From NCBI RefSeq assembly GCF_964019385.1, contig NC_088643.1:80108999-80172998 (forward strand): a stretch of 64,000 nucleotides of DNA, written 5' to 3'. Position 1 is the first letter of the stretch; each line of letters opens with the position of its first letter. This document shows positions 29,599 through 63,079 of this stretch, in pieces. The notes below the pieces were generated by a model, which was not told the origin of the DNA, did not search any database, and saw nothing but the letters and a program-made list of their open reading frames with translations. The position numbers and the translations under genes are program-made. Origin of the DNA: Sycon ciliatum (taxonomy: Eukaryota; Porifera; Calcarea; Leucosolenida; Sycettidae).

Positions 29599-32500
29599 TC
29601 TGATGTTTTCCTGGTAGTCGTCAACCTTCCTCCGGTGGTTTCCCTCAGCATCTGTCGAAACCACTGCGGGCAGATTATGCACTGCAAATCGTACTCTCTT
29701 TGTAGATTTCCGCGGTTTCCACAGGACCCTGCCGAGCCTAAACCTGGCGGCAACAAGACTATGGTTGTTGTATGGCCCCAGTATTGTTCAATATATTCAT
29801 GTGGGCAGTATTCCAGCTGTGGCAGCGTGAGGTTGCGGACATACCTGAGATTGGACTTCCCGTCTCCTCTAACTCTGGACCGTCTCTCCTTTTCAAACGC
29901 CAGAAGACTGACACAATCAACATCCATCGTGACTGTCAATTCGCAGACGATTCGGCACTTATTGCTACAACTCACCATGGTGCCACACTTGCGCTCAGCC
30001 GGTTCATGGACGTCGCAACTCGCTTCGGCCTCACCATCAACCTATCAAAAACCAAAGTAATGGCGGTCGGTTTCGGCATTTCTCCGGAGGATCGTCGTCC
30101 ATTGGTGGTTGGCGGGGAAATTGTCTAGAATGTGCATGACTTTCGCTACCTAGGCTCCATCATCCATACTGGTGGCCGCACCGCAGTGGACACTCGGTCC
30201 CGAATAGCGTCAGCATCTAGGGCATTCGGAGCATTGCATCGATCTGTCTTTGATGATGGCGATCTTTCACTGGCAACGAAGCGAATGGTGTATGATGCAT
30301 GTGTGGCTTCTCTTCTCCTTTACGGAGCGGAGTGTTGGGTACCCCTGAAAAGCGAGCTAGCGGCGCTGTCCGCCTTCCATCTTCGCTGCATTTTCGCAGT
30401 CTTAGCCCTCGGTAGAAGAGACACCTGGGACTTCCACATCAACAGGAAGACCATTCTGGAGGCCTGGAATTGTCAAGATCCAGTGGATATTACCACACGT
30501 GTTCTTCGCCGCCGTCTGGAGTGGCTAGGCCATCTAGCTAGGATGGACGGCGATAGAACTCCGCGCCAGCTCCTGTTTGGTGCGCTCCTTCCGCCTAGGC
30601 CGGCTTGCGGTCCTCGGAAACGGGGGCGAGACTCTGTCAGAGCTGACCTCTCCGCAGTGAACATCGACCACACGGAATGGTACGACCTCGCCCAGGAGCG
30701 TGGGAAATGGCGCAGTGCGTATTCCGCTCAACCAGTACCGCGATCGGCTCAGCGTGACACTTCTGTGCTCTGCGATGTCTGCCAGCATACTTTCGCCCAC
30801 CAGAAATACAAGAATCGCCACAAGTGCCTGGCCGAGAGGAGGAAGCCCATATCTGAGCAGTCCGGCAGCCGACTATGTAATGCGTGCGGGAAATGGTTCT
30901 TGAGTGCTGGTGGGCTAGCTTCGCATAAGTGTCTCTCCAACTCGGCTGCTGAAGTGGCGTCGGTCTCGGCTGTGGCATCGGCAGACTCGGTCCGGAAACA
31001 GCGGGTTGCCCTGCCCTGCTGCAGAGCGCATTGTCTCGGCTGCGGTCGCTGCTGCAAGTCATCCCGTGGTTTCGACCTGCATAGCTGTGCTAATTTCCTG
31101 TCCAGGAAGTAGAGCGGCGTTTCTGGATCCAATGCTGAACTCAGTGCTGTCGACCCCTGCACAGGGGACACGTGACCATTTGATGGCAGTGTTACCAAGG
31201 ACCAAGGTGTGGTCTGCCGTCGTCCTGGGGATCTCAAGCGCCACGCTCCGTACTGCAAAGCTAGCAGATAGTCCCTTCGCTATCATTGCCATCGGCAATG
31301 GGCACGTTTAAGGTTCAAGGTGTGTGTCTGTGTGCTAATCCTCTGTGGTACCAAATGAGGAGTTGAGGCGAATTTGGGAAAGCCAGAGTTGTCCAACAGC
31401 ATTCACAAGCAGTGCATGGAGTGGCTTGGGCATACTGCTCGCATGCTTGATACCAGGCAAGCCGAGCAGCTGTTGTTTGGCTGTTTTGGTAAGGCTCGTC
31501 CGGCAGAAGGTCTGCACCTTCGGCTCAAGGACCATGTCCATCATGACGTACGTTCCCTGCACACTTCACGCTCCACTACAGCCCAGGATCGACCATTGTG
31601 GAGATTGTGTGTGGCTGATGTTTTGCCATCTCTGTCATCTAATCCGACTGTGCACTACAATACTACAATGTTTGTAACCGCCGTCTCAGTATGTCTGGGT
31701 ACAAGCGGCATGAGTGCAATTCGACCTGTCAACTTCTTATCTGTCAGCAGCCTGGTGCAAAGTATTGTTACCACTCACTGTGATGAATGGGTCAGAAGTA
31801 CTGGTTGGCTCAAGGTGCACAAGTGCTCTCCCACATCATCTTCCCAGCAGCCATCAAACTTGGTCGGCCCTGCACTTCACCTGGTGCTTCAATAGAAATA
31901 GTCTTGTGCATTCCGTCATCTGAACGCTGTTTCTGATCCACACGCAGATCAGAAACAGCATATAAAATTGTACGCTCGGCAAGCGGCCAACAGTGAATGA
32001 GTGGCTGCTATTCAAGTTCTGTTGCATGTGTGGCGAAAGATTTCGCCTGCAGCAGGATCTGCAACGTCAATGGTCATGAGACCAGATTTTCCACCGCGAA
32101 ACCATGATGCTATCCTCCCCCCCCCCCCCTGATCCCTATACTATTATGTCAGTATCCCATTGTTGTCATTAAAGTACATGTACCGTGGTGCTCATTCCAG
32201 ACAGCATGCCCCTTTGACTTTGATCCCATTAATGGCACACTTTGTGTTATTGTGTATACAGTAAAACCTGGTGTAAGCGACCTCTGGGTTTAGCTACCAC
32301 GTGCTCTTAACGACCGTTTTTTCATGCACGGACAGTTCTACACAGAAACTGTGGGACCTGGTTCTAAGGGCATGTTCGATTGGTAAGGATCGGGATCCAG
32401 ATCTCAGATCCGTCGGATCCTTCAGAGTCAACTGGACACTTTTTTTTGGCCTTGACTGTTGCCATGTTGACGAAGTAATAAAAAGTCGTACTCACCGCGC

Positions 32501-41404: not shown

Positions 41405-44400
41405 TCTTTTTTATTCGGGAAAATAAAAAAGACCAAAAAGTAGGGATTCACTGGCCAGAAAAAGCCACTTCATAGCTGTGTGGTGTAGACCAGGCTGAAT
41501 AGTGGGGGCCAATTCTTCAGCCTTGCAAGCTGTTGAATGGTGCAATCCCAGCACAAGTTGCTATGGCTTCTGCTGTAGCATCGCTATCATCGCCTCCGGC
41601 GATGGGCGTCCAATGGTCCAATGGTGTGTGTGTGTGCGCGTGTGTGGTAATGCGTGTGCATGTGTGTGCATGCTGGCATTCAGATCAACTTGAACTCATC
41701 TTAGGGATGGAAGTGCCCATGGGGACGTGTGCACACGGTCGATATCTTATATGCATGAGCACAACGCAGCATTATTCCCGACGTACCGTTCCCGCTGCAG
41801 CACCAGCTGTGAATGCCTCCACAGTCGAGATGGTCCGACCTTCACGAACAGCACGCGACTTCATAACCTCATACGAACACCAGTAGATCGCTGGGCGTGA
41901 AAACAATGAGACAAAGAACAGTATCACCATGCGGATGAATGCAAGACACAAGCTCCAGCTGCTACAGGAATAATCATAATAATTAATTATGTGATAGATC
42001 GCATACAATATGCATTGACACAAACAGCATGATAATATCATGCTTTTTGTGTCCATGTGTTGCACAGTAATATTATTACTGTGCAACACATGGCTGCTAC
42101 ACCACACTGAGAACAGGAGCAATGTCTGGAAAAAGGCACTACATGTACTAACAATTGAACAGCAGCCAGACATAGCATGAAGATAGCAAGCTAACCTGAA
42201 AAGGGTACATCTCTCCATAGCATTGGTACCATTCCTCGCCACAGAGACCAAACACCATCTAATTGAATCGCTTCCTTCAGCACAGACTTTAGTCCTGATG
42301 AAAGGCAATAGAGGCACAGCATAAGGTGTACAGAAGATCAAGCGTTGAACATACCGCTTAGTTGCACAAAAGCAGTGCTGATCATCACATAAAGCGGATG
42401 CGCAAAAACACCGTTGTGGGTCAAACTTGTATTCAAGCAGGAATTTTAACCCTTTACTGTCCGATTAAAATGTATACAAGCCCACGCAACCACAAAATCT
42501 GAAACTAAAATTAGACGTAACTTTGGTTTGAATTTGACGATTTCCACGATCTTGGGCATCCTGGAAAGGTCTTGACGAGACGAACGCAATGAGCCCACAC
42601 TCGGCACCACAGGATGCACTGGTCCAGCGCTGCAAGCCGGGGAACGCGCAAAAGCGCTGAGCTCACGCTCGAGATCGATCTCAATCCACCATGTCACCCC
42701 TGTTGCTCGTATCGAGCTCAAATATTTTCGTAGAGACTCCCGGGAACCTGCTTTTGAATTTGAATCGGTGTAGCCTTGCCAACAGGTGACGTAAACAGGG
42801 AAAATCCCAGCCGTCGACATGCGCGTCGCGCTCTGAACGCACATTTCCCGGGACCAGAATTACGAGTGCGATAACTCAGCAACCGCTTTTCGTATCGCTT
42901 CGGGAATTGTTCGAGGCGACAGCTGAGACTTTTCTCTTCGACCTACATATTTCGATCTCTCCCAAAGACCTAGATTTGAGCAAGTTACGATAATTTCAAA
43001 ATGCCTACCCCATCGATCCCATTGGATCGATGCTTGTATGTACGGACAGTAAAGGGTTAAGCACACCAGAAGTGCAAAGACATGCCAACACATTCTTAAA
43101 CTGTCCCAATTTCTATTCCTATCATGATTTCACACAATACATGACGGCGATAAAATAATAATACCAAGAGTACATAACCCAAGCGTGTGCAACTACCGCG
43201 TACCTGCTGACCCGACAGAATTTCAAGTTGACGTCATTTTTATGATGCAATTCTCCTTGCACGAGTGACTAACGTCATTTGTACGCATCACACGTTTTTC
43301 TTCACAATAGTTTGTACAGGATTAAATGGGGCTTTGTCCACCACAGGTTCAGGATACGTCTGATAACAAGTGTACAGTGCGCATTGCATCATAAAAACTA
43401 CGTCAACGAAATTCTGTCGGGACAGTACCCATAGTCGAGATGCACACTCTGGGGGGGGGGGGAGGGGATCATGTACTCTTGATAATACTGATGATAATAG
43501 AAGCAACAGCTGCAGTCTGAGTCTCCATATCACCCACTAACCTCGGTGGCTGCTGAGTGCTTGTGACTGCATTTTCGTTCTGATCATTTCAATGGGGCAA
43601 ATAGCCAGCACCGCCAAAGCTGAGATGAAAAAGAATAAACAAAATCAGAAACAGTTCCACAATCGGTTTGGAGAAGTCTTTATGTTAACATAAAGCCAAA
43701 GAAGACATGGCAGCTTACACAGCCTCATATCAATAGACAACACAAATGAAAAGGCGGGGCAGATGGAAAGTACAACCCATGCACCCATACCCACTCTAAC
43801 ACACAGACCACCACACACACACGCGCGCGCGCACACACACACACACACAGACACGCACGCACCCACACACATCCGGCTTACAGCGAGAAGACGAGCCACA
43901 CACGATGGGATAGATGAGGTTTGAGCGGTTCTCATTGAAGCTCGTTCTCGCCATCATCATGTCATAAGCAGTGTAGTAGATAACTGTGGCTGGTATTGCC
44001 ATCACTCTGCAAGAAAAAACATACCCGCACACATAGCAGCAGCAGCAGGACAGCCAAGAATGCCAGCGGAGGGAAATTAGGCATAAGAGGAATCAAAAAT
44101 CATGACGAGAAGGCGCGCGAGTGTGTTGGGGGAGAGAAAGAAGGAGAGGTCAATGGCGAGCTTGTGCGGAACACCAAGATTGGCTGTGTGGTGTCTGGTC
44201 CAGCGTCCACCCCCAAATCCAAGCAGTAAGCCCGTGACTCAGTCATACGTGACAGCCCACATTGACACACTACGGCAAACGGATGGGCCCCCAGACCAAC
44301 AGCAGAGCTTGAAGGAAGTCTTGGTTGGAAGTGGGAAAGAAAGAGAGGGGAGGGGGAGAGAGAATATGTCCAACCCACTACTCAACATCAGCCCGAGGGT

Positions 44401-55300: not shown

Positions 55301-58300
55301 AGTTGGCGTGCTCAGACGATACGCTACGTTCCTGCCTTTTCAATGTCGCATAGCCTATTTTCGTTCTTTCATTTTATCACACTTTATGTATGCCGCTTCT
55401 GCTTACTTACCATTTCTCACGGCGTATCAAAGTCGACGGCTTAATGGGCTCTTCAAGCGTGCTGTACGCACAGTCTGTCGGGTACCTCCCGGGACACCCA
55501 CAAGCAATATTCTTACACGCATGAACATCCAAACATTGACCACATACGCCAACATGCACCTTCTGGTTTTTATCTAGCGTTGTCTCCATGACTCCTCTAA
55601 CATCAGCATGTTGTTCGCTAACTTTTTCAGCCGCAGTAATTCCACTCAAACTCGTGGTAGGCACAGCAATTTACTGATTGTCCCAGCCAGCCCAACTGCA
55701 TATCTTGCCAAACGTGTCACCTATGCTGGGACCATCTTATGGAACCAGCTCCCCGCTGCGGTCAGGCAAGAAAGAAAACGCAATCGCTTTAAGTCAATGG
55801 CTCTTGCCTTTTTGCTTACCAGATAAATAAGCCTTTTTACAAATGCTGTATGCACTGCTCTACGTTATTTTCTCCCTATGCAAGTCGCAACTCCTGTTTT
55901 GAGTTGTTTTTCTTCTCTCTTTTATTTCCCTACTAGTTGCTGTTACACTCACTGATCCTTATGCACAGATATACAGCATTCCCTCACTAGTGGGACCATT
56001 GTTATTAGGCTAGGGCCTGTTTTGGACTTCCCACTCTAAATAAAGAATACAAACAACAGCAATACCCGTGATGTGTGTTGTAGATACCCGTGATGTGTGT
56101 TGTAGATACCATCAAGAGTATAATTATAACCCCCCAAGAGTGTGCAACTCCTGATATCTTTTCTATGGGGTATACCGACGGCGAAAACTCACATCACGTG
56201 GTGCAGTGTCGCAGTTGTACGTTTCCAGCCCGTTTTTAGCGAGCAGCGGAATAATAAAAAAGCACTCTCTGACAGAAACTCACCGCGGGTATGCAAATCT
56301 TCAGCATGATCGTGGCAGATATTTGGATAGCGCGCACACTATGCTTCGTTTGTACGTAGTACGAACGTACCTGAGACACGTGATGTGAGTTTTCGCCGCC
56401 GCAGACCCCATATGCAGAATTGCACACTCTTGTGGGGGGGGGGGGGGGGGGGGGTATACTCTTGATACCGTGTGTCTGTGTTAGGTGGTATATGTGGCAC
56501 TTTGTGCTTAGCAGCTACCACATGGGTTAGCTTGTGTTTGTGCTTAGTGCAATGGTTGCAAGTGAAATCTGACCCTGAATTATAAGTATTTTACGTGCAA
56601 TCCGCAGACCTTAAATTAATCGTGTTCAGTAGTGTGCATGCCCGTCGCACGCTAGCAAACAGCAAAGCGTGAAGATCACTTCTATGGCTTTCACTCTCTG
56701 GCCTTGCGTGTGCACAAGTACTGCTGCATACATGTGTATCGTCATGCCCAGGATGATCCTTGCTGGCAGGTCAACATACAAAATAGAGTAAAACCTATGT
56801 TTGCTGCACCCTGTACCAAGCAGAATCCTGTTTTGATCGGACAGATTTTCACGCTCCAAAGTGCTATGGATTGTGCCTGTCATATCAAAACAGTTTTGTT
56901 GTGTAACTTGTGTCAGATACCGGTATACATTTCAACAGGTTTGTTTCATAAGATTAATTTGTTGCTGTGTTTTCCTCCTGCAGACATAACATTAGTTAGA
57001 TCAACACCACCAGGGGCAGCAACAGCATTAGCTGAGGTCCACCACAATGTCCTTTCACCCAAGGGCCGTTCGGGCAAACGGGTGAACGGATCATTGAATC
57101 TAGAATGTTACTGGGAAGAAGCCAAGCGCATTGAGCAGGAGTCACCTGGCATAGCAGAGAAGCCGACATCGGAGTACGAGGACCCTAAAGAGGATAGGGA
57201 GACAGGTGAATGATCATAGTGCTCAATTCTGTTTTACTGATTGTTGTACTGTACGAGGTGCAGAGTTGCCTCCATGTCAGCTGAGCTATGTTGTGTTCCA
57301 TTGTCTATCAATGTCCCTTCTGAAACACTCAAGCTATTACAGCAGACTTCACATTCTTTCGTCATAATCCAATGTTCAAAGTCTTACTGCACTGACCAAA
57401 TGGTAATGTTGGCAGAATTGAGCCATTTGCCACAGAGATAGTCAAGGAATTTGCAGGATAACACTGGTGCTAGGAGGTTCGGTGGCACGGTGCGTGCCTC
57501 AATGGCCGCCGAAATCTGCTCAGAAAGACTGCTGCTACAACTGCTGTCGCAGGTCATGAAGTTCTGTCATCGATCATATTGATATTGAACCAGTGCACCG
57601 AGGCCCCAAGTATTGGGGTTAACGTATAAGTGGTAAATATGGTATGTATTCTTTGTTAGTGTGTACAAAGACAATAGTCTATAGAAAGGCATACAACTGC
57701 TTCAGTCCAATAAGGGAGGTTGGATAGCGTCAAGAGTACATGAAAACCAGAGTGTGCAGCTTGGGGCCTTTTCTGCTATGGGTGTCTGTCACGGCGAAAT
57801 TCCGTGATTACTGTGTAATACATCATATTTGGCCCAGATCTGAGGCGGGAAATGGCGTAGTACGTACAACTGAGCTGCAGTTGTGCAGAAAGAGACCTGC
57901 TTGAATCCTGCTTGTACGCACTACATCACTAAAATGATGTAATCACGGAATTCCGCCGTGACAGCCACCCATCCGAGCTGCACACTCTGGTTTTCATGTT
58001 CTCTTGATAGCGTGTAGTCTACCTGAACTCACTGGGAGTCCTTTCCCAGACTCATGAATGATGGTCGGAGTCAGCCCTGCAACAATCCACTGTTTGTCTG
58101 CTGTTTGAATACTGCATGCACAGACCCGGAAGCTGATGGCACGCCTGAACCAGGTCGGAAAGATGCGCGGCCCGCCTCGGTGCTGTCACTCAGCGAGGCC
58201 GTCACTGTTGTCAAGCATGTAGCCCTGCTCAGCGCCATGGTGCGTAAGCGGCGCCATGCACTGGCCCGCGCCAGCCTGCAGGAGGACGCGCCCGGCGACA

Positions 58301-61300
58301 GCGAGGTCATCTCTCCGCTGCGGACGTCATGTGACTGTGCACATCACTACGCCGATCATTCCGAGTGAGTGTATGATGTCATTGTGATGTAATAGCCAGC
58401 ACTAGTAGAAGTGCCTCGCACTACATTCTACATGTGTAGCTACCAATGATCGGATTTCACTTTGGACAATCTTGACCTTGAACTAGCCCCCTTGTCTACA
58501 CTCAAATGCTTTATCTTTGGCCGTGTTTACATGAGATGTTTCAACCCGGGTTGAAAAGTATGAAAAAAGTCAAGCTCCGTATGAAGACATCCAAGAAGAA
58601 GATTGCCTGATGAGTCCAGCGGGGACGAAACGTACGTCGCAATCGAGCTATGTCGTTGCTGTGTCATCATCTATGTGCCATGCGCTACTTGATGTACCAG
58701 CCTGCTATGCCGGATACCGCCAGCCATGCATCGACCAGGCGCGAACTGATGGTGGTGGTGAGAAGGAGAGCTCTGTGCCAGAACTTTACAGCCTAGAGAG
58801 CGTGTGTGGGCAGGCGTGTGTTTACCGCCATATTGCCAGGTGTGTCTTTACCACCATATTTATCAACCATGGGTTGAAAAGTATGGTGGAAAAATGTGGG
58901 TGCTAACATGAACAGGGTTGACCCAGGGAGATTGCTGATAGCAAGAGTACATAATCCCAAGTGTGCGCAACTGCCTGCACAACCGCAATCTAGTACTGTG
59001 AGTCTGTGAACGCAGAACTTCGCATGACACCAAGGTTACGCTGGCAAACAGTGCAAACTGACCAGCTGAGCGTTGAACCGAAAGCAGGATTATGTACAAC
59101 TTGGTACGTACATGTATCTATTATGCACAGGGTGCAAATAATTATGTGTAGGGGGTTGTCACGTGATGTTAAGTTCTGCTGCCGTTGACTACATAGGCTG
59201 GAGTTGCACACTCCAGGGGCTCTGTACTATTGCAATGGTAGGCATCAAAAGTCAATTTCCAGAGTCCTGTATAGTCGCATGGCTACTTAGGTGGGACATG
59301 TGCCTGTGCAATCCCAGCTCGAAATACGCACATAAGTACAGTATTATGCAAGCCTTGCCGGATAGGTAACATGTTTTCACGGTGACAGCATGAACAAGGC
59401 GAGGACCGAGACTCTACCAACCGGTTTATGGTTGTAGTCAGGAGCACTGTTTCCCATACAGTGCGTCCTCGCCTTGTTCACGCTGTCACCGTGAAAACAT
59501 AAGTACAGTAGTACGTTTCCTGTCCAACCCAGGTTAAGCGCTGTGTATTATGTAAACACTCCTGTCAATCCATGTTCATGCCAGTCTGAAAACTCGTATG
59601 GGAACACAGCCTTTCCCTGATACAGTTTACCGTAATCCCCTGCATACAAGAACAGTTTGTATTATCTGGAAACGCGCTGTTCCACGATTTTTCCAAGTGA
59701 TTGTTCTTCATGTGTAAGCAAATGTGCTTGTACTTAGCGTTTGCGAATTTAGTGAAGTCTCAGCATACAGTGTAGCTGTTCACGTACATACACACCCTGT
59801 GCTGTGTGATGCATGCTGGTCTGCACTACACCTACCACACTTCTTGCCCATGCAAATATATGCGGGACTGCTGTACGCATACGTGTATTCATGCTTGTAT
59901 TTATGCTTGCCTTTGTACTTTCTACTTGCAGCCCCCATCCTGGTGACCCCCGCGACAACGACTATCTGGTATTACAGTACGGAGAAGACGGTCGTACGGA
60001 TGAATCACAACCGCTGCCTGAGTATCGACTGCGGTTTCAGCCGACGGGCGTATCCTACATGGATGACTTATCGGTTCCAGATCGTGACAAGATACGTCAC
60101 ATTGCACTGCTGGAGCTGACGTCGCTGTTCGATCGCCACAGCTTACCGCTGCGAGTGTCCCGTCCACCCAAGCGGAAAGCAACCACATCCGAGTCTAAGG
60201 TTCTTGGTGTGCCGCTGACCACTCTACTGGAAAGAGATCAGGAGCGGATACCAACTGCCAAGTGTCCTGTCTTCATGGAAGAGGTAATGGAGTCGGCTGA
60301 GCTTAATTTCAAGGCATCGAGTACAGCTGGAACCCTGGTAACCCAAATCCCAACTTGCAGGGGGACCTCTAGTTATCGAAACGTGTACCCCAAGGCAGTG
60401 TGTATGTCAAATGCTTGCATTGTCACACAGAGTTGCGTTATGCATCTCACACCCTCTGCACTGGCGAGTACTGCTCGAGTACAGCCTGCTTGTGCACCCT
60501 GAGCTTCAAATTATCAGTAGGAATTCGACACATGTTTTATGTAGGCGGATTTCATGAGACTTCTAACAAGGGCGTATGTGCCCAGTTTGCGGTTCGAATT
60601 ATCAGACAAGAAAATGTAGGGATCTTATTGAAATCTTATTGACTGAAATTGAATTGGTGTAAGCCACGTTTGAATTACAGTCAACCTCGAAAATAATCAA
60701 TGACCTCGACCTAGTGACCATTTGACTGCATACTTTAAGCCTCACGAATAACGGCACTTTTCTAATGCACGGTTGGGGGGGGGGGAGGGGTGCTATTCGC
60801 AAGGCTGACTATATCCGGATTCCACTTGCATGTGCATTGAAAACATTCTTCTGTCCTCTTCATCCTTGGCTGCGCCCACAATCCAAACCTAATTCAACGT
60901 GAACCCTGCTTTTTGCTTGTACGGGTATCATCAGGGATATCGTAGCTACTGTCCATTCATCCAAATAGCGGTAGATATGGTAAAACGTTGCTAAAAACAA
61001 CTGTACTTACTGCATTATGCGAACTGTGCAGTTCTTCCTTGTCACATTAATTTGAGGTCGGGAAAGTCCAAGGGAGCTAGAAATTCAGCCAGGTTTTACA
61101 ATATAGGATGGGTGGACTGTGACAAGACGTATGCAGAAGCAGGTCCCAGCCCAGAAATTTCGGGCTTTCGAGCCTATTTATTTAGCCAAAACCTGGCATC
61201 CCAAAGCCAACGCAACTATTTGGGATAAATGGACTACAGTGAAAACCTTCTGGCAAGCTGTTTCAGTTCAGATCTCTAGGTGTGTTTAGCTCTGGTGGAT

Positions 61301-61975: not shown

Positions 61976-63079
61976 GTGTGTGTGAGGAATTCCTGGTCCT
62001 TTATTCCCTGAGGTTTGGCTGCTTAGCCTATTCTCTGTTCTATTTCCAATTTTCCATATGGCAGAGTGTTGATCTTGTGGATTTCCTTTTCTGTCATTCT
62101 ACTGTGCAGCGCTGAAGGACGAAGGAATTTTGCGTATTCCGGGCAATTCGGCAAGATTAAAGGTGTGGTATACACAATCTAGCTTGACTAATTCATTCCT
62201 CCATCTGCGTGTTAAAAGCAAAATGGCTACTGCAAATAATTGGATTAGCTTTCCCGCCTTTCTAAAAGAACTGTTACTGTGTGATTTGATCTGTCATGTC
62301 ATTTTGGCATGGATGTCTAGTTGTGGCACGACAATTTGAAGTCTATTTCGGCAATTTATTGTTCGATGGGCGAGGTGCAGCTGGCAGTCAACACTAAAAA
62401 AGCCCAAAAGTCAGTACACGATGTATAATGATCATGCTGCCAGCAAGTGATCACTAGTATAAATGCTAGTTGGTCAACTTGTGTCACATTGATCAGCAAT
62501 CTGGTGACTCTTCCTGCTTCAACATTGGAAGAAAGTTGGAGAGCGAGCGCAGGGGAACTGCGTAAGCTAGGTCTAGCTGTAAACTGTGTGCAGCCATGCT
62601 ATCAGCAGGACTTTACAGCGCCAATCATTGACTGACTGTTGCTCTGATGTGTAATACTGTAAAAGCAGAAATTTTCGGCAACTTCGGTGCCAACACTTTT
62701 ACCGAAAATAAAACGCATCGAAAATGTCGATATAGTACTATAATTATAGTGCACTTACCTGGACAGCGGGTTTACCGAGAATTTCCCATCCACCGAATCG
62801 CCGATTTTGGAGAATACCGAAAATACTACACCACCGAAAATTTCTGCTTTTACACTATCTTTGATTGTCCTTAAAAGGAGAACTGTCACTGGGATGGTGA
62901 TTTCATCTTTGCTCGGTATGGTGGTGTTTCAATTGGCACGTTCTGAATTATCTGTTTTTCTGCGTTTTTGCGCTGCAGAGACTACGGGAGGAGTTAGAGA
63001 AAGGGTATGATGAAGGCACGTTTTCTTGGGCTGGCCGAAGAACAAATGATGCAGCAACGCTATTGAAGCAGTATCTAAG
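52389..63079 (+). CDS. ARHGAP18/28/40-type Rho GTPase-activating protein, 3' part beyond right edge
   Basis: GTPase-activating protein of the ARHGAP18/28/40 (Drosophila conundrum) group, expected to switch off Rho GTPases and shape the actin cytoskeleton. Exons: 52389-52404 (tentative start exon, MSGNA), 56984-57205, 58124-58364, 59932-60283, 61387-61411, 62110-62162, 62979-63079; all phases agree. ECYWEEAKRIEQ in the second exon resembles the YWxELExI segment of ARHGAP18. DKIRHIALLELTSLFD and LGVPLTTLLERDQERIP in the fourth precede the RhoGAP domain. The catalytic arginine-finger block is EGILRIPG, Arg codon 62133-62135, followed by YDEGTFSW and NDAATLLKQYLR. The rest of the RhoGAP fold (after QYLR) is not in the window, so the gene continues right. 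The start exon is chosen because ATG plus 16 nt ends in a GTAAGG donor in the right phase; it is the least certain part. The exact paralogue is not resolvable. Confidence 0.88.
53196..53565. mobile_element. 370-bp fold-back element, near-perfect palindrome
   Basis: The left arm (from AGAAAGGAAAAGGAAATAT) and right arm (ending ATATTTCCTTTTCCTTTCT) are inverted copies over about 180 bp each, with only scattered mismatches and a centre at the AACCTTCCAAGTTGGAAGG hairpin near 53385-53400. The transcript of the RhoGAP intron would form a very long hairpin. Confidence 0.88.
55099..56110. repeat. LINE insertion flanked by duplicated 22-bp repeat arrays
   Basis: Two copies of the unit CCCGTGATGTGTGTTGTAGATA occur immediately before the LINE fragment (55099-55146) and two copies occur immediately after its tail (56063-56110). 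The arrangement fits a long target-site duplication of about 45 bp created when the LINE landed in a two-unit repeat. Confidence 0.7.
55145..55826 (+). pseudogene. 5'-truncated LINE ORF2 C-terminal fragment
   Basis: The frame begins near 55173 with AKYLGLHFDADMSWNTMVDH, a typical post-catalytic segment of jockey/RTE/CR1-type LINE reverse transcriptases. It continues through FILSHFMYAASAYLPFL and RAVRTVCRVPPGT. A TAG at about 55575 interrupts the frame, which then continues to WNQLPAAVRQERKRNRFKS and stops at 55826. It belongs to a different LINE lineage from the copy at 29740. AATAAAG and a short A/C-rich tail follow near 56040. Copies of a 22-bp repeat flank it on both sides (see the target-duplication entry). 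Confidence 0.82.
56112..56470. mobile_element. Member of the ATCAAGAGTATA family with a G-tract
   Basis: ATCAAGAGTATAATTATAAC and GAGTGTGCAACTCC at the left; ATTGCACACTCTTG, a run of about 20 G, and TATACTCTTGAT at the right. CACGTGATGTGAGTTTTCGCC is present inverted on both halves. Related partial copies with the same ACTCACATCACGTGGTG motif are at about 21110-21240 and 22755-22865. Confidence 0.7.
57728..58012. mobile_element. MITE of the ATCAAGAGTACATG family
   Basis: Terminal CAAGAGTACATGAAAACC and GGTTTTCATGTTCTCTTG are inverted over about 33 bp, with inner CCGTGATTAC also inverted. It belongs to the most frequent element family here. In the intron between RhoGAP exons 2 and 3. Confidence 0.75.
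58601..58644 (+). ncRNA. Type I hammerhead ribozyme with minimal stem III
   Basis: The full conserved core can be read directly. GATTGC (58601-58606) pairs with GCAATC (58639-58644) as stem I. CTGATGA is at 58607-58613. GTCC and GGAC (58614-58617, 58623-58626) form stem II around the loop AGCGG. GAAA is at 58627-58630, followed by a very short stem III (CG-TA-CG, 58631-58636). The cleavage triplet GTC ends at 58638, just before stem I resumes. Self-cleavage would be expected between 58638 and 58639. Known hammerheads with such short stem III occur in retrozymes, Penelope-like elements and satellite repeats and often act as dimers. It lies in an intron of the RhoGAP gene on the sense strand; no associated reverse transcriptase was seen nearby. 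Activity is inferred from the sequence only. Confidence 0.88.
58936..59240. mobile_element. Diverged member of the ATCAAGAGTACATG family
   Basis: GATAGCAAGAGTACATAATC followed by GTGTGCGCAACTGC at the left, with GGAGTTGCACACTCC near the right end. The terminus is degraded. Confidence 0.5.
59369..59503. mobile_element. Short fold-back MITE with 36-bp arms
   Basis: ATGTTTTCACGGTGACAGC...GGCGAGGAC at the left is repeated inverted at the right with one or two mismatches, around a 60-bp centre. Confidence 0.78.
60284..61386. other. RhoGAP intron without recognisable features
   Basis: Only short ORFs, a short G-rich run near 60775-60786 and no repeat family I could define. Confidence 0.5.
61880..61970. 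repeat. (GA)n microsatellite
   Basis: About 45 GA units in a RhoGAP intron. Confidence 0.95.

Follow-up and report, generated by a model that had tools for sequence, protein, structure and literature searches.

The analysed stretch of Sycon ciliatum DNA is 64,000 nt long and is called the window below. Three of its exons (56984-57205, 58124-58364 and 59932-60283) can be joined into a single 271-codon open frame; their phases match, and the splice ends follow the GT-AG rule. A hammerhead ribozyme motif lies in sense orientation within the intron at 58365-59931, and its expected cleavage point is 274 nt into this intron. The joined frame, the phases and the GT-AG ends bear out the preliminary description, which had placed the hammerhead in sense orientation within a protein-coding intron. 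The features of the locus are listed here.

56984-57205, plus strand: exon further upstream in the joined open frame
58124-58364, plus strand: exon 5′ of the host intron (joined open frame, matching phases)
58365-59931, plus strand: GT-AG phase-2 intron of 1567 nt in a RhoGAP-like gene, host of the insertion (joined open frame)
58548-58562, plus strand: left target-site duplication GGGTTGAAAAGTATG, an exact 15-bp repeat of 58871-58885
58563-58567, plus strand: AAAAA between the left duplication and the element, unmatched to the unit (unit alignment, letters)
58568-58870, plus strand: retrozyme copy, corresponding by alignment to U40-U352 of the 352-nt unit (the unit being L023:1423-1774)
58601-58644, plus strand: type I hammerhead ribozyme (RF00163, 35.4 bits)
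58601-58606, plus strand: 5′ strand of stem I, GATTGC (6 bp), pairing with GCAATC at 58639-58644
58607-58613, plus strand: catalytic core CTGATGA (sequence letters)
58614-58626, plus strand: stem II, GTCC/GGAC, 4 bp, loop AGCGG (sequence letters)
58627-58637, plus strand: GAA of the core and stem III ACGTACGT, 2 bp with GTAC tetraloop (sequence letters; duplex energy)
58638-58639, plus strand: expected cleavage site C58638/G58639, predicted from the position in the RF00163 alignment
58871-58885, plus strand: right target-site duplication GGGTTGAAAAGTATG, an exact 15-bp repeat of 58548-58562
59932-60283, plus strand: exon 3′ of the host intron (joined open frame), overlapped by the own-genome protein P0001

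The host had been named a RhoGAP gene. Two exons further downstream on the same strand (62110-62162 and 62979-63079) do carry this domain, with a Pfam RhoGAP match of 33.1 bits against a cut-off of 24.5, but the joined protein of the three exons around the intron matched no Pfam family. As we did not locate at least one exon that should link the two groups, we only infer that they form a single gene, possibly ARHGAP18/28/40. A protein search for the identity of the host found one protein among 2169 candidates, that of the own genome, and a PDB search with the RhoGAP piece gave no match at E 0.01. It is possible that the ribozyme cleaves the pre-mRNA within the host intron. Little effect on the splicing of the RhoGAP-like gene is expected, and the intronic copy is probably of little consequence to its host. 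Two short MITE-like inverted-repeat elements with arms of 34-36 nt (59371-59500 and 57730-58007) were also seen in or next to the host intron, and 58938-58975 of the window resembles 43161-43197.

The element in the host intron

A cmscan of the whole window against Rfam matched Hammerhead_1 (RF00163) at 58601-58644 on the plus strand, scoring 35.4 bits (cut-off 34, E 3.7e-05) over model positions 1-45. The alignment marks no pair as broken, and this was the sole gathering-level Rfam match in the window. The motif defined by the fixed core and its spacing was found at one site in the window, and none of 100 dinucleotide shuffles contained it. When the core and all three stems were required, a scan of both strands of the window returned only 58601-58644. 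A chance match was rejected on the score, the shuffles and this sole core-plus-stems site. The complete type I hammerhead first described from the letters, with its coordinates, core and stems, was thus recovered by the covariance model above the gathering cut-off. An extended stem I (GACAT/ATGTC) was dropped and is not claimed, because 16% of shuffled flanks reach five Watson-Crick pairs.

The stem III 8-mer, ACGTACGT, is its own reverse complement. Stem III had been likened to those of retrozymes and of Penelope-like elements (PLEs) alike, and only the first likeness held. Two pairs with a tetraloop are the ordinary form in invertebrate retrozyme hammerheads, according to PMC7229834, whereas PLE hammerheads are described as missing helix III in the available part of PMC7761336.

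The hammerhead was not the predicted fold of the lone 44-mer (-7.7 vs -10.5); for motifs resting on tertiary contacts, folding alone usually fails to favour them. The predicted fold of two 44-mers was a double hammerhead (-30.0), but a gain of this size from dimerising was also seen for 135 of 500 44-mers taken from the window, and therefore the trans dimer was given no weight.

A search for repeats around the hammerhead, suggested at the outset as a check, revealed a multicopy element. The genome DNA search with 58500-58960 gave at least 155 matches (40 scored of 1159 candidates). The listed non-self matches start at query position 68 or later and end at 374 or earlier, mostly spanning 69-371, which is 58568-58870. 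Among the matches listed, the genome-wide ends lie at, or at most 4 nt from, the borders 58568 and 58870. Because the listed sister matches reach no further, the flanks appear to be specific to the window site.

The window copy is 303 nt long and its 3′ end is the site called A below. It is 96.5% identical over 313 columns to the array unit L023:1423-1774, with one substitution and gaps of 7 and 3 nt. With so few differences from a unit of a tandem array, the window copy is, judged by its sequence, a young insertion and a near-intact family member. The suggestion that it is the relic of a small self-cleaving retroelement was therefore right as to the retroelement but not as to the relic, as the family has 817 exact cores. 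No Pfam match was found in the window open frame 58535-58903, and a frame for reverse transcriptase and GIY-YIG is absent from both the window copy (303 nt) and the 352-nt unit. A unit of 323 nt, deduced from the flanking repeats, proved wrong, the true unit being 352 nt; this 323-nt stretch was not unusually stable (-87.6 vs a shuffle mean of -93.9).

Family members and their ends

In the own genome (538 Mb, 313 contigs), the pattern CTGATGAGTCC-N3-8-GGACGAAACGTACGTC gave 422 + 395 = 817 exact cores, and the reversed-pattern control gave none. Comparatively, one neighbouring 27-mer had 568 exact occurrences, the core pattern allowing a variable loop of 3-8 nt. With this single control 27-mer, the excess of cores is suggestive of core conservation. 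All six pairs of stem I, with G-U counted as a pair, were kept in 81 of the 84 exact cores at the distinct loci fetched. The kept stem I and the excess over the 27-mer would suit a working ribozyme; they are no proof of activity, as the loci were selected by exact core. An own-genome search with RF00163 had at least 21 matches, at least four of them over the cut-off (74 scored of 76236 candidates), but this count says little because the window site is missing among the matches listed. No exact hammerhead cores were found in IMG/VR and GTDB contigs, nor was the flank pattern found in IMG/VR.

A sister sample was formed by the first 100 of the 817 places, all on contig C1 and all with the exact core; they fall into 63 clusters, all of which were examined. 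Among these 100 places, 13 of 25 same-strand neighbour pairs were exactly 352 nt apart, 12 neighbour pairs were head-to-head and none was tail-to-tail. A second sample was drawn from the match list of the 58500-58960 search, with 149 places typed; on C1 it partly overlaps the first. It contained 39 arrays, of which 25 had a single minus-to-plus switch and none a plus-to-minus switch. Its largest array comprised four minus and 14 plus units (C10:17974237).

Two side observations were made among the loci. At C1:69.387-69.459 Mb (L073, L074, L076, L077 and L078), the same diverged retrozyme array recurs with flanks that are alike, so the surrounding segment itself seems repeated. A second hammerhead family was seen at L002-L004 (C12:24463260, C13:12601910 and C14:16525492) in tandem units of about 226 nt, with the core CTGACGAGTCC...GGACGAAACAGTTCTGTC and a stem III unlike that of the window hammerhead.

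Duplications were scored at 64 loci, which are the 63 clusters and the window copy (L087); two loci contain N. Duplications of at least 9 nt were present at 33 of the 64 loci, compared with 7 of 1260 mismatched-flank control pairs. The window copy was mis-chained in this survey via a spurious minus-strand match, and is thus counted as lacking a duplication in the 64 and left out of the 53 below. Subtracting 10 flank duplicates from the 63 clusters left 53 distinct insertions: 29 head-to-head, 24 one-directional and 0 tail-to-tail. Duplications of 9-17 nt were found in 29 of the 53 (21 of the 29 head-to-head and 8 of the 24 one-directional insertions), and 21 of these 29 duplications were 12-14 nt long. 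The other 24 distinct insertions had no duplication of at least 9 nt.

The 3′ ends of the copies clustered at two places about 36 nt apart, site A (U345-352, 36 ends) and site B (U31-46, 31 ends), with windows and end classes set post hoc; the 5′ ends of one-directional copies were spread across the unit. Among the 21 head-to-head insertions with a duplication, 17 had one end at A and the other at B, four had one end elsewhere, and none had both ends at the same site. For all 29 head-to-head insertions the numbers were 19 A+B, one A+A (without duplication), no B+B and nine with at least one end elsewhere. The 24 one-directional copies, the window copy not counted, ended at A in 11 cases, at B in eight and elsewhere in five. 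A weak T-rich stretch before the duplication was noticed on the A side in 17 insertions.

We also compared the two arms of head-to-head insertions, using 19 drawn from the 21 with a duplication. The median divergence was 0.65% substitutions within an insertion (n = 19) and 2.27% between insertions (n = 380). The arms differed by gaps in four of the 19 (L034, L054, L056 and L084), in L056 by one base near the end only.

Penelope-like elements and other known systems

No autonomous partner had been visible at first. That may be so within the window; in the genome, however, there are GIY-YIG elements whose insertions have the same anatomy as those of the retrozyme. A GIY-YIG search of the genome gave at least 13 matches (150 scored of 944 candidates), and two of 13 places were read in detail. 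L091 (C1:2905500-2911500) has an 807-aa frame with a GIY-YIG match of 24.5 bits and no other Pfam match, including reverse transcriptase, at E 0.01. L092 (C13:217500-223000) has a 749-aa frame with GIY-YIG at 25.4 bits and RVT_1 at 26.9 bits (E 4.7e-06), the latter below the cut-off of 29.6. Both have long inverted arms. Read by eye, each has an outer end finishing at ...TTCGA, whereas its opposite outer end runs on into a 36-nt tail, GTTATGAAGCTGCAGGATGCCTCAC... Their apparent duplications, also read by eye, are near 11 nt: AGTTGTCTTCC in L091, less certain because the target is itself a local repeat, and about CGATATATTTT in L092. The PLE tail junction occurred 49 + 53 = 102 times in the genome and the control 0 times. 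At C10:28066353, 28066774 and 28067195 it was seen at an exact spacing of 421 nt, which looks like tandem PLE-derived units without the coding part.

The 3′ part of L091 and L092 contains CCTGATGATGGCAATTTGCCGAAACG, presumably a minimal PLE hammerhead, and a hammerhead-like motif CTGATGATGGCAATTTGCCGAAACG was seen in both; no Rfam hammerhead was found in L088-L092 at E 1. The idea that the hammerhead unit is the pLTR of a GIY-YIG element was discarded, as BLASTN of the unit against five GIY-YIG loci gave no match over 17 nt. The A-to-B stretch of the retrozyme has about the same length as the PLE tail. Both tails share AGCTGCAG followed by ACTTC, words that were chosen post hoc (P = 0.0011 by shuffling; 13 of 15991 real windows). 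Gapped alignments were not significant, either of the tails (P = 0.12) or of the wider 3′ zones (P = 0.71). Therefore, the PLE link rests on anatomy first and on sequence second.

The same anatomy has been described for PLEs, whose hallmarks are head-to-head pLTRs, duplications of 8-10 bp and a 31-bp tail optionally present on one inverted pLTR, as given in part of PMC3846280. Endonuclease-containing PLEs in that text resemble the present family in their head-to-head arms, partial tandems and short duplications, and in a 3′ tail, some 31-36 nt long, on one of the two inverted copies. In our samples, 29 of 53 insertions were head-to-head, 0 tail-to-tail, 21 of the 29 had a duplication, and 25 of 39 arrays had the corresponding switch. 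A one-end tail of this size is given by the A+B ends of 17 of 21, with site windows set post hoc. Unlike PLEs, the retrozyme has neither a reverse-transcriptase nor a GIY-YIG frame, and its hammerhead has a helix III.

The metazoan non-LTR retrozymes described by Cervera and de la Pena (2020, PMC7229834) share with our family the type I hammerhead whose helix III has two pairs and a tetraloop, tandem repeats with units a few hundred nt long, dispersed copies, duplications over 4 bp and more than one hammerhead family per genome. Retrozymes are recognised as multicopy, often tandem units of about 150-450 bp, and here 352-nt units with 817 exact cores were found. Duplications above 4 bp were likewise found, with 15 bp in the window and 9-17 bp in 29 of the 53 insertions. 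Retrozymes of this kind are further characterised by small circular RNAs as their transcripts and by the lack of an LTR, a primer-binding site and a polypurine tract. Two properties differed. Published retrozymes have a GC content below 50%, whereas the unit has 52.8%. They are also highly self-paired and stable, whereas the unit as a circle was 66% paired and not unusually stable (-101.4 vs a mean of -108.9, sd 6.7, for 150 single-base shuffles). Systematic head-to-head copies and two fixed 3′ ends set our family apart from the retrozymes of PMC7229834, in the main text of which the words "inverted", "orientation" and "head-to" are absent.

Schistosoma Sm-alpha and newt satellite hammerheads are also type I in short repeats, according to part of PMC6155905, but their unit is different; the schistosome repeats carry a full tRNA, as stated in part of PMC4918200. 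In open-access literature, with most subscription papers outside this scope, we found neither a retrozyme paper with twin priming nor one linking Penelope-like head-to-head copies with a hammerhead retrotransposon. Five papers there do mention retrozymes together with Penelope and inversion, and in two of them the word "inverted" appears a single time, in the title of a reference and in a list of abbreviations, respectively; this is no proof of novelty. The notable result is the Penelope-style insertion anatomy of the family.

Origin of the insertions

We interpret the window copy as a recent insertion of a metazoan-type (non-LTR) retrozyme, made from a circular or multimeric RNA template and most likely by PLE machinery (probability about 0.75). 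Cleavage, RNA circles and dependence on PLEs are what we infer here. Tandem laps, which pass the A-to-B stretch and the cleavage point, require a circular or multimeric template. PLE machinery seems most likely, as PLEs show the same anatomy both in published descriptions and in the genome studied here.

Transcripts of the arrays would cut themselves at the hammerhead, at unit position 110/111, into 352-nt RNAs, which would then be closed into circles. A nicked end of the target DNA would prime reverse transcription at a fixed place, site A near U350 or site B near U35, and the polymerase might run several laps on the circle to produce tandem units. The other target end would often start a second copy at the other site. 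The two starts would give head-to-head arms within one duplication, and one of the two ends would carry a tail of 36 nt. The window copy would be a single arm of about 0.9 lap from site A.

Instead of two priming events, self-priming could also account for the head-to-head insertions; this would be a snap-back of the kind proposed for PLEs, perhaps with an antisense strand as template. We regard this as possible but doubtful. Self-priming is favoured for PLEs in the available part of PMC3846280, and it fits the likeness of the arms (median 0.65%, n = 19, vs 2.27% between insertions, n = 380). However, arms copied from each other would be expected, and gaps distinguish the arms in four of 19 insertions (L034, L054, L056 and L084). 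The fixed 36-nt offset of the outer ends is unlike a simple snap-back product, and the lap numbers of the arms can be very unequal (4 vs 14 units at C10:17974237). Two priming events at A and B, one per target end, would lead to unequal head-to-head arms in one duplication, and the likeness of the arms agrees with a single template molecule shared by both. We favour twin priming, with both events on one circle, over self-priming.

It is unlikely that a LINE-type reverse transcriptase mobilises the retrozyme and produces its head-to-head copies by twin priming. The window does contain a 327-aa open frame (30129-31112), putatively the end of a non-LTR reverse-transcriptase protein, and duplications of 9-17 bp would fit LINEs too. 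To our knowledge, LINEs do not show a one-sided tail of 31-36 nt together with head-to-head copies. The retrozymes of Nematostella, likened to LINEs in the available part of PMC4918200, have 15-bp duplications, the same size as at the window copy. On the other side, that very combination of a one-sided tail and head-to-head copies is described for PLEs in part of PMC3846280, and two GIY-YIG elements in the genome studied here have a one-sided tail with inverted arms.

The preliminary description had also offered a domesticated intronic ribozyme. In this case the hammerhead would regulate the splicing of its host, like the RECK and C10orf118 hammerheads of amniotes, and its intact motif, sense orientation and intronic position agree with such a role. 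The amniote precedents (RECK, C10orf118/CTCL and DTNB) lie within introns of coding genes as well, but they are conserved across species, as far as described in the available parts of PMC6155905 and PMC3088659, whereas the hammerhead here belongs to a young multicopy insertion. The window copy is one of hundreds, a single substitution and a pair of gaps separate it from an array unit, its 15-bp duplication is undecayed, and no tested feature sets it apart from its sisters. Domestication is thus unsupported and very improbable. The least credible reading, a DNA-transposon derivative (MITE or hairpin element) with an incidental hammerhead, arose from palindromic flanks (58539-58556 and 58847-58893) that first resembled terminal hairpins, and it was rejected when the sister copies revealed these repeats as the target-site duplication of a palindromic target and since tandem laps and spread 5′ ends are unfit for a cut-and-paste element.

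To return to insertion from a circular template by PLE machinery, the anatomy of the ends is relevant to the question of why inverted copies and one-sided tails are found in PLEs, and it can be counted in any long-read genome. A more specific proposal, to which we would give even odds, is that circular hammerhead RNAs serve PLE machinery as templates right at the target, with copying from two fixed starts about 36 nt apart, one per target end. If this is true, a complete two-armed insertion would have one tailed and one untailed end, and the retrozyme would be a minimal substrate that explains the PLE tail and the inverted pLTRs. Both of these would then record that priming had taken place twice, at different positions, on a template that was circular or multimeric.
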